From Oscillospiraceae bacterium (GTDB taxonomy: Bacteria > Bacillota > Clostridia > Oscillospirales > Oscillospiraceae), in the NCBI GenBank assembly GCA_015068305.1, contig SVKV01000006.1, positions 1 to 64,000 of the forward strand: a stretch of DNA of 64,000 bases, read 5' to 3'. A program made the translations under genes and the position numbers. The number at the start of each line of letters is the position of its first letter. The stretch's first letter is position 1. This document shows, one piece after another, positions 42,644 through 44,487 of this stretch. The notes below the pieces were generated by a model, which was not told the DNA's origin, searched no databases, and saw only the letters and a program-made list of their open reading frames with translations.

Positions 42644-43975
42644 TCATTGACTCCTCCGTTCATGAATTTGGGCGGAGGAGTTTTTTAGATCCCCGGTTGC
42701 CGGATTCTCCAGCAGTTTTCCGCCTTCTGTGAACCGGGAGCCGTGGCAGGGGCAGTCCCAGCTTCGCTCCGCCGGATTCCATTTCAGTGCACAGCCCAGA
42801 TGGGGGCACCGGGGCTTTGTGGGCGTGAGCAGATTGAACGTGGATTCCACCGCATTAACCGCCAGCTGGGGCCGCAGGATGGTCCTGGAGGGGGAGAAAA
42901 GCTCGGCATAGGGATTGGACCTGCCCTGGACCAAGTCCGCCAAAAGATGTGCGGAGACCATGGAGGCGGTCATGCCCCATTTGTTGAAGCCGGTGGCGAC
43001 AAAAAGGTTTGGCGTATTGGCGCTGTACTGGCCGATATAGGGAATCCCGTCCAGCGTTATGCAGTCCTGGGTGGCCCAGCGGCAAACCTCCCGGGATTGG
43101 GGGTAGTGCTTTTTTGCAAAGGCCTCCAGTTCCGCCCAGCAGCCGCCCTGCTTTCCGGTCCGGTGCCCGCCGCCTCCGAGCAGCAGCACATCCCCATAAC
43201 TGCGGAAGGAAAGACCGTCCGTTGCCCCATCCAGATACATGCCCTCCGGCTGCGGCGCATTTTTCAGCGCCAGGACGTAGGAGCGCCGCTGATACAGTTT
43301 CAGAAAATAGAGACCGTGCTTGTTGAAAATAGGGAAGTGGGTGGCAACAATGATTTTTTCCGGGAAGATTTTGCCGCTGTCTGTGATGACTGCGGTTCCG
43401 TCGAATGCTTTGACTGCCGTGTGCTCATAAATGCGCAGCTCTTTTGCAATGCCGGCAGCAAATTTCAGCGGATGAAACTGAGCCTGGTTCGGAAAAGAAA
43501 CTGCCCCGGAAACCGGAAGAGGCAGGGGGAGGCGGCTGTGGAATTCTGCCGGGATACCCAGCTGATGCAGGGCCTGCCACTCCTGCATCGGGCTGTCCGT
43601 GTCTGCAGTTGCATAGATATAATTATCCCGGACCTCAAAATCGCAGGCAACAGACCGGCACATCTTCCGGTACCGGGTCAGTGCATCCTCGTTGGCCTGC
43701 CAGTAAAGCCGGGCCTTCTCCGGACCGAAGCGGCGCAGCAGCTTGTGATAAACAAGACCGTGCTGGGTCGTGATTTTGGCGGTGGTGTTCCGGGAAACGC
43801 CATGCATGATCGTATCCGCTTCGATCAGCGCATAATTGACACCCTCCCGGTGGAGCTGATGGGCGCACAGAATGCCCGCCAGACCGCCGCCAATAATCAG
43901 CACATCGGTATTTAAGTCCTGCTGCAGTTTCGCAAAAGAGGGGAGCTGTATTTCAGCCCAGATGGAGTTGTTCAT
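42644..43975 (-). CDS. FAD-dependent oxidoreductase (DAO family) with C-terminal Rieske [2Fe-2S] domain
   Basis: DVLIIGGGLAGILCAHQL; CPHLGCALKWNPAERSWDCPCHGSRF. Confidence 0.9.
   Translation of the reverse strand: MNNSIWAEIQLPSFAKLQQDLNTDVLIIGGGLAGILCAHQLHREGVNYALIEADTIMHGVSRNTTAKITTQHGLVYHKLLRRFGPEKARLYWQANEDALTRYRKMCRSVACDFEVRDNYIYATADTDSPMQEWQALHQLGIPAEFHSRLPLPLPVSGAVSFPNQAQFHPLKFAAGIAKELRIYEHTAVKAFDGTAVITDSGKIFPEKIIVATHFPIFNKHGLYFLKLYQRRSYVLALKNAPQPEGMYLDGATDGLSFRSYGDVLLLGGGGHRTGKQGGCWAELEAFAKKHYPQSREVCRWATQDCITLDGIPYIGQYSANTPNLFVATGFNKWGMTASMVSAHLLADLVQGRSNPYAELFSPSRTILRPQLAVNAVESTFNLLTPTKPRCPHLGCALKWNPAERSWDCPCHGSRFTEGGKLLENPATGDLKNSSAQIHERRSQ
42651..42686 (+). terminator. Rho-independent terminator of the reductase/DUF3343 operon, inside the 3' end of the convergent CDS
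   Basis: ctcctccg...cggaggag-tttttt. Confidence 0.75.
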
Positions 43976-44130
43976 ATCATCACCGGCAGTAGTATGCGCG
44001 GTGGGAGAAGAATTAATCCCGGATCAGTGCTTTCATAGTGCGGTACCTTCTAACGGAATCCGATGTCGGGAACAGTGAAATGCCAAATTATAAGAATATG
44101 ACTGTTAGTCGTGTTGAATTTTTAAAAAAA

Positions 44131-44173
44131 TGAGCATCTGCCAACAGTCATACCGACTGCCGTCAGATGCTCA
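44131..44173 (-). terminator. Compound hairpin followed (on - strand) by T7; probable terminator
   Basis: tgagcatctg/cagatgctca with inner cagtc-atacc-gactg; aaaaaaa at 44124-44130 on +. Confidence 0.65.
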
Positions 44174-44174
44174 T

Positions 44175-44252
44175 GGACTTTCCCACGCCCTAACTGACTG
44201 TCCACCGGACAGTCAGTTACCCCGTCTTCGCCGGGGCCGGGCTTTCAAGTCC
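44175..44252 (-). ncRNA. Candidate structured RNA / multi-stem element (strand uncertain)
   Basis: Nested pairing: ggactt/aagtcc (44175-80/44247-52), gccc/gggc (44187-90/44239-42), enclosing 13-bp stem 44191-203/44207-19 and ccccg/cgggg 44220-24/44232-36. Confidence 0.5.
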
Positions 44253-44262
44253 GTGCCACGTC

Positions 44263-44297
44263 AAAAAACGCCAACCGCAAATGCGGTTGGCGTTTTT

Positions 44298-44298
<1 letters not shown>
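44263..44298 (-). terminator. Bidirectional-looking terminator abutting tRNA-Trp
   Basis: aaaaaacgccaaccgca-aa-tgcggttggcgtttttt. Confidence 0.88.
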
Positions 44299-44373
<75 letters not shown>

Positions 44374-44410: not shown

Positions 44411-44487
44411 TGGTGGGCCTTCAGGGATTCGAACCCGGGACTATCCGGTTATGAGCCGGAGGCTCTAACCAACTGAGCTAAAGGCCC
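44411..44487 (-). tRNA. tRNA with CAT anticodon (elongator Met or Ile2)
   Basis: Reverse complement GGGCCTTTAGCTCAGTTGGTTAGAGCCTCCGGCTCATAACCGGATAGTCCCGGGTTCGAATCCCTGAAGGCCCACCA. Confidence 0.93.

Follow-up and report, generated by a model that had tools for sequence, protein, structure and literature searches.

Hairpin-forming DNA insertions downstream of tRNA genes in Oscillospiraceae have closing stems that match the neighboring tRNA

Background

In the attC sites of integrons, R'' and R' boxes pair with each other on one DNA strand around an unpaired spacer, and further stems and a variable top complete the fold (PMC2727003). Arrays of such folded cassettes, together with gene capture, are known from integrons with one attI site and a dedicated integrase. 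Other mobile or repeated elements are associated with tRNA genes. Tycheposons are tRNA-gene-linked, kilobase-scale elements that have their own tyrosine recombinase. REP and BIME elements are short palindromic repeats that occur in many copies, and the rtT repeats of tyrT contain part of the tRNA 3' end behind the tRNA gene. A search of the open-access literature found no description of tRNA-anchored foldable cassettes.

The window analyzed here is a stretch of 64,000 nucleotides from an Oscillospiraceae bacterium (assembly GCA_015068305.1, contig SVKV01000006.1, positions 1 to 64,000). Downstream of its tRNA-Trp gene lies a DNA insertion that folds into hairpins and belongs to a multicopy family without an earlier name, and the stem that closes this copy repeats the T-arm of the tRNA next to it.

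Structure of the element behind tRNA-Trp

The earlier note on this region, made from its letters alone, had described many nested stems and a terminator-like hairpin between a tRNA-Trp/tRNA-CAT pair and a FAD-Rieske gene, and it could assign them to no known family. All of these stems are present. The tRNA pair is confirmed by ARAGORN and Rfam and the gene by its Pfam DAO and Rieske domains, and Rfam at the gathering score matches only the tRNAs around the element, with sub-threshold matches at chance level. Features of the region:

42644..43975, minus: FAD-dependent oxidoreductase with a C-terminal Rieske domain, 443 aa (Pfam DAO 3.6e-41, Rieske 1.4e-7)
44130..44174, minus: second hairpin, hp2, a compound hairpin followed by T7 on the minus strand (fold of 89 homologues)
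44175..44253, minus: type A core (R1 match of 93 bits, covariation)
44175..44180, minus: R' box AAGTCC, identical to the 3' strand of the tRNA-Trp T-arm (TTCAAGTCC) and pairing with R''
44175-44180 / 44247-44252: P1 stem, ggactt/aagtcc
44187-44190 / 44239-44242: P2 stem, gccc/gggc
44191..44219, minus: P4 hairpin with a GGT loop, whose 13-bp stem is 44191-44203 / 44207-44219
44220-44224 / 44232-44236: ccccg/cgggg hairpin
44244..44262, minus: decayed inverted copy of the tRNA-Trp 3' end, GACGTGGCACGGACTTGAA, whose inner part is the R'' box GGACTTG (sequence)
44263..44298, minus: terminator hairpin of tRNA-Trp, A6 - stem - T6 (fold, homologues)
44298..44373, minus: tRNA-Trp (CCA), the anchor gene (ARAGORN, Rfam RF00005)
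44411..44487, minus: tRNA-Met (CAT), upstream in the same tRNA cluster (ARAGORN, Rfam)

The region 44120-44300 folds with a large stability excess over shuffled sequences on both strands (z about -11.5). Its energy is -95.0 kcal/mol on the plus strand and -104.7 kcal/mol on the minus strand, against shuffle means of -46.5 and -57.3 kcal/mol (z = -11.7 and -11.3, respectively), and none of 200 shuffles folded equally well. On the minus strand, tRNA-Trp comes first, followed by its terminator, a short segment with GGACTTGAA at its end, a three-way junction and hp2. The real unit spans approximately 44130-44262 on this strand. The terminator-like hairpin of the earlier note at 44263-44298 is the terminator of tRNA-Trp within the same palindromic arrangement, and the FAD-Rieske gene is a downstream neighbor outside the element.

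The type A core is a three-way junction of P1 (R''/R'), P2, P3 and P4, with conserved unpaired GAAA/GTGGGA segments and a GGT triloop. Directly after it, hp2 abuts R' without a gap and consists of a covarying outer stem, an internal loop with conserved GACG/GTTGG and an inner stem-loop. In the window, hp2 is followed by a T7 run on the minus strand (44124-44130) and resembles a terminator, and most homologues have no T-run there. The full antisense of the tRNA-Trp 3' end is TGGCAGGGGCACTAGGACTTGAA, and the copy in the window has decayed outside GGACTTGAA. That the closing stem copies the T-arm of the neighboring tRNA is the key feature absent from the earlier note.

Distribution and covariation of the type A core

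Homologues of the element are found by blastn throughout the genus, with several per genome. A covariance model of the type A core (R1) matches 80 of 121 same-genus genomes with up to 18 copies each, and its distribution is patchy, with many nearly complete genomes having none. An exact pattern scan of GTDB genomes returned 104 stretches, almost all labeled as Oscillospiraceae or Clostridia and mostly from gut metagenome-assembled genomes (MAGs); the single stretch labeled Akkermansia is probably a binning error. Copies are also present in a cultured bacterium, Pseudoflavonifractor sp. MSJ-30 (L100 and L121). Among the genomes searched, the family does not extend beyond this genus and a single sister genus within Oscillospiraceae.

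Covariation is overwhelming across 119 R1 matches (97 of them distinct). Standard pairs occupy 97.2% of the pair cells, and both partners have changed in 20 of the 30 pairs. The covariation score of 0.393 compares with 0.108 after shuffling. Sliding the pairing by one column reduces the paired share to approximately 50%. The hp2 hairpin covaries with a regularity equal to that of the core. An unpaired G that follows P2 on the 5' arm of type A is conserved in 95 of 97 rows; it is at most a candidate counterpart of the extrahelical bases on the R''-L'' arm of attC sites. A shorter variant with a core of approximately 62 nt that lacks the P3 hairpin occurs at L055:11818-11879 and L103:25-258, and it too is found in tandem.

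Tracking of the neighboring tRNA gene

Among the 95 type A copies that are not at contig edges, 77 have a tRNA on the same strand no more than 400 nt upstream, and 57 lie 41-59 nt behind it. Seventeen isoacceptors are represented. Copies that have no tRNA usually stand behind a fragment of a tRNA 3' end, often at the apparent end of an integrated element. Since homologues occur behind at least 17 tRNA types and before unrelated genes, the riboswitch of the FAD-Rieske gene that the earlier note had considered is rejected; the downstream sequences and genes at other loci are unrelated.

The R' hexamer is identical to the T-arm of its own tRNA in 55 of 57 unique pairs. Random reassignment gives a mean of 18 matches and a maximum of 31 in 10,000 trials. 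R'' tracks its own tRNA as well (48/57, permutation mean 17). At seven loci, which involve His, Pro, Leu, Ser and Gln tRNAs, the segment just before the core reproduces the tRNA 3' end perfectly in antisense over 23 nt, CCA included. In nearly all copies a terminator with a T-run separates the tRNA from the element, as it does in the window, and in several loci the tRNA 3' end, terminator and inverted copy make one continuous palindrome. In L035:1300-1620 (also L120:5541-5761), two type A elements are arranged back to back around one such tRNA-3'-end/terminator palindrome, with the inverted element standing in place of the tRNA body.

Type B sites and the complete cassette

A second kind of site, type B, was found by following the loci of arrays. 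It has the closing boxes of type A and the same TCCGGTGGA hairpin, and P4 is the motif most widely common to the two types. The right end of type B is AAATGCAAA, and a direct repeat of the tRNA 3' end adjoins it. The right-end signature, AATGCAAA-Y(N)-RANTCCC, has about 130 matches in 54 of 121 genomes, compared with none for the reversed control pattern. Because several complete cassettes with a type A core have the type B right end, the element in the window can be placed in this family. Its own copy has no right-end signature, and it is a type A site that lost, or never had, its right end.

A covariance model of type B (R2) matches 105 of 121 same-genus genomes with up to 30 copies, and in an order-wide sample of 348 genomes type B is limited to this genus and one sister genus. 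Its covariation is likewise almost complete, with 98.1% of cells paired and two-sided changes in 25 of 26 pairs; about 13 nt and a GCAAA segment are unpaired and conserved. The closing stem P1 is paired in 97.7% of type A cells and 98.9% of type B cells.

A typical cassette is approximately 150-190 bp long and is located at a tRNA or tmRNA gene. Among the 106 distinct type B sites, 68 lie within 75 nt of such a gene, and these represent 28 gene types. The right-hand direct repeat (tRNA positions 56-76) is 13-21 nt long in 65 of these 68 sites. A hairpin follows the full-length repeat in 19 of 37 cases and is probably the displaced terminator of the gene. At L350:7085-8180, a tRNA cluster has one type B site between tRNA-Gly and tRNA-Cys, where there is no terminator hairpin, and another four in tandem behind tRNA-Cys.

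In IMG/VR, no type A core was found, and the right-end pattern of type B is present in four contigs. Three of these also match R2, and two have the pattern at tRNAs or tRNA 3' ends. On these matches, phages are at most possible carriers of the sites as att sites.

Arrays, cargo genes and nearby recombinases

The genome from which the window comes has 44 tRNA genes and about 27 type A or B sites, of which about 25 are type B. A site of either type lies within 80 nt downstream of 16 of the 32 tRNAs that end a cluster, a position that has a chance of less than 0.001 per site, and the tmRNA gene also has one. None of the eight tyrosine recombinases in this genome reaches the integron-integrase cut-off (TIGR02249 or NF011946), and no recombinase gene was seen beside an array there. 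Contig C20 of the same genome (L342:6594-13299) has another four type B sites, on its minus strand, with no adjoining tRNA, and three of these are in tandem.

Tandem arrays are common, and genes are found between successive sites. A cassette of approximately 4.7 kb behind tRNA-Arg (L358:4242-9292, minus strand) lies between two type B sites and encodes a C5 methyltransferase, a HaeIII-type endonuclease, a second C5 methyltransferase and Shedu SduA, all in the orientation of the tRNA. A short-chain dehydrogenase gene, also in tRNA orientation, separates successive sites at L347 in the window's own genome, and YfhO (L355) and a 152-aa open reading frame (L357) are situated between sites elsewhere. 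The tandem order of gene and then site recurs at L357/L261, L358, L347 and L355; these cargo cassettes are few in the sample, all loci come from draft genomes that are mostly MAGs, and the E-values are rough.

Modules that are 88-91% identical occur at loci that differ in their tRNA ends and have exchanged flanks. In L313 and L349, which are 91% identical inside the module, the tRNA-specific flanks switch exactly at the module edges. In a nearest-neighbor count most neighbors end in a different tRNA, but different-end pairs are far commoner from the outset, and the evidence for retargeting is therefore the explicit module pairs. A search for empty sites at tRNA-Trp and tRNA-His gave no clean filled/empty pair, the intergenic regions being too variable, as in the cross-species comparison of the tRNA-His locus. 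Copy number, patchiness, arrays, direct repeats and cargo support one proposal of the earlier note, a small structured mobile element at a tRNA locus.

Tyrosine and serine recombinase genes are found by these sites at several tRNA junctions, and none is tied to the family. Candidate recombinases include the XerC/XerD-like L334/L335, L337 and ICE integrases. In six same-genus genomes (L197, L199, L213, L214, L215 and L224), a tyrosine integrase gene lies directly behind tRNA-Trp, which makes the tRNA-Trp of the window an integration hotspot. A tyrosine recombinase gene in L123 ends at a tRNA-Gln att site and element. At L093:2807-4381, L072:1590-3077 and L355:3528-4385, the end of a large serine recombinase gene coincides exactly with a tRNA 3' end, behind which stands a type A or B site.

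Recombination modules or attachment regions

With slightly better than even confidence, we read these elements as single-strand-folding recombination modules of integron-like cassettes that have the tRNA T-arm as their target. The recombinase genes raise an alternative that we judge unlikely, in which the elements are leftover attachment regions of conventional tRNA-targeting integrative and conjugative elements (ICEs), prophages or serine-recombinase elements, whose own integrases act on double-stranded att sites and for which the folds are incidental to arm sites. The integrase genes behind tRNA-Trp in six genomes, the recombinase genes that end at a tRNA att site and element (L123, L093 and L072) and direct repeats of the tRNA 3' end, which are typical of such elements, would all fit. 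However, near-complete covariation of several helices is unexpected for double-stranded att sites, and tandem sites occur without any integrase. R'' and R' also differ between tRNAs around modules that remain 88-91% identical, so there is no fixed att specificity.

Folded DNA or RNA

Counted over type A, hp2 and type B, G-U exceeds A-C by 109 to 38 on the tRNA-sense strand, which suggests one preferred strand, although the p-value of this asymmetry is too optimistic because the sequences are related, and a biased mutation spectrum could contribute. The asymmetry would also fit a structured non-coding RNA that is co-transcribed with the tRNAs and acts, for example, on the pre-tRNA 3' end through the antisense R'' segment. 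The conserved unpaired bases, the tandem G-A-like internal loops and the complementarity of that segment to the tRNA 3' end are compatible with such an RNA. We nevertheless regard it as rather improbable. In nearly all copies the T-run terminator stands between the tRNA and the element and leaves no room for a promoter, G-U makes up 1.2% of type B pairs compared with 8.1% in the tRNA helices of the same loci (a sevenfold difference), and the bounding of gene cassettes and the direct repeats would be needless for an RNA. Since G-U pairs are few and a terminator is directly upstream, we infer that the active form is folded single-stranded DNA rather than RNA. The undescribed non-coding RNA that the earlier note had offered as one option is disfavored by the strong terminator and the G-U-poor covarying helices.

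Possible mechanism

If the elements are single-strand-folding recombination modules, a module would insert at the T-loop of a tRNA or tmRNA gene and re-make the 3' end of that gene. The full locus reads tRNA, terminator, inverted tRNA 3' end (R''), folded module, and R' with a direct repeat of the tRNA 3' end. When the tRNA-sense single strand folds, R'' and R' would pair and rebuild a short double-stranded piece of T-arm atop the structured hairpins. Several points count against this reading. No recombinase is tied to the family, the comparison of tRNA loci gave no clean empty site, ordinary site-specific recombination does not account for a change of both R'' and R' with the tRNA, cargo cassettes are few, and the copy in the window has no right-end signature. 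In type A, moreover, R' is not the edge of the cassette, because hp2 comes after it. Modules could pass between different tRNA genes, adopting the flanks of each new tRNA, and pile up in tandem arrays in which genes may ride between successive sites. Recombination would be carried out by a recombinase supplied in trans. The tRNA 3' end might be copied in both orientations if the T-loop is broken, the folded module caps the downstream end and repair proceeds through the terminator hairpin.

A further alternative would need no recombinase dedicated to the family. Inverted copies of the tRNA 3' end might arise by fold-back copying when the template switches at the terminator hairpin, and the hairpins would persist as by-products of replication. 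The continuous palindromes of tRNA 3' end, terminator and inverted copy seen at several loci are consistent with this, and an order of repeat, inverted repeat, module and repeat fits a two-turn zigzag. Fold-back copying is quite improbable because it would leave unexplained a conserved module at about 28 gene types, a fixed right-end signature and cargo genes. Movement of REP-like elements by an IS200/IS605-type Y1 (HUH) transposase acting on folded single strands, with the target-complementary strand as a possible guide, would suit short multicopy palindromic elements, but it is most improbable, as long direct repeats are atypical of Y1 transposition and Y1_Tnp is absent from 12 of 13 type B-carrying genomes (present only in G019), for which reason IS200/IS605 or RAYT was rejected as the general driver.

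The recombination-module reading leads to a broader and more tentative proposal, to which we give somewhat less than even credence: a new cassette-capture system of Clostridia that parallels integrons at tRNA and tmRNA genes. Its folded single-stranded sites would recombine with T-arms. With each insertion they would reproduce the 3' end of the local tRNA and so keep that tRNA intact, and they would be able to move to almost any other tRNA and to build arrays that can carry defense and metabolic genes. If this is true, it represents a separate solution to gene capture, with the T-arm as target, approximately 28 tRNA and tmRNA types in use and half of the terminal tRNA genes occupied. It would be relevant to the questions of why insertions concentrate at tRNA genes and of how defense genes reach gut bacteria. 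That the local tRNA is tracked in both orientations poses a sharp, directly testable mechanistic question.

Comparison with known systems

Like REP and BIME elements, these insertions are short multicopy palindromes, and like rtT they repeat part of a tRNA 3' end behind the tRNA gene. They differ in that most of the genomes have no Y1 transposase and in that the tRNA segment is present in both orientations, inverted and direct, and varies from one tRNA to the next. Linkage to tRNA genes is shared with tycheposons, in which we know of no hairpin module of this kind.

TRNA-targeting ICEs, integrative mobilizable elements (IMEs) and prophages also insert into the 3' part of a tRNA gene, restore the gene and leave a direct repeat of its 3' end. 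The present cassettes, in contrast, are about 150-190 bp long, usually contain no genes or integrase and have no room for an integrase; the cargo that is seen is not a recombinase. They carry a conserved foldable module that is not bound to one tRNA, and closely similar modules occur at different tRNAs with different att flanks, whereas those elements have a fixed att.

The closest parallel is the integron cassette. In attC, seven-nucleotide inverted R''/R' boxes close a site that folds as a single strand (PMC2727003). The likeness extends to the further stems, variable top and central unpaired spacer (GAAA/GTGGGA in type A, about 13 nt and GCAAA in type B), to the location of the site at the 3' end of a gene, to tandem arrays bounded by direct repeats and to strong conservation of structure with little conservation of sequence. 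In both systems the pairing boxes contain the target sequence, and here P1 matches the tRNA T-arm. The lineage in this case is Oscillospiraceae, and IntI was not found in the window's genome. An integron has a single attI beside its integrase, whereas the sites in this genome are scattered over many tRNA loci, none of them beside an integrase. The cassettes described here also include a terminator and an inverted tRNA 3' end, and most are geneless. Finally, where attC has one attI as its partner, these sites have the T-arms of many tRNA and tmRNA genes, and their boxes copy the local tRNA.
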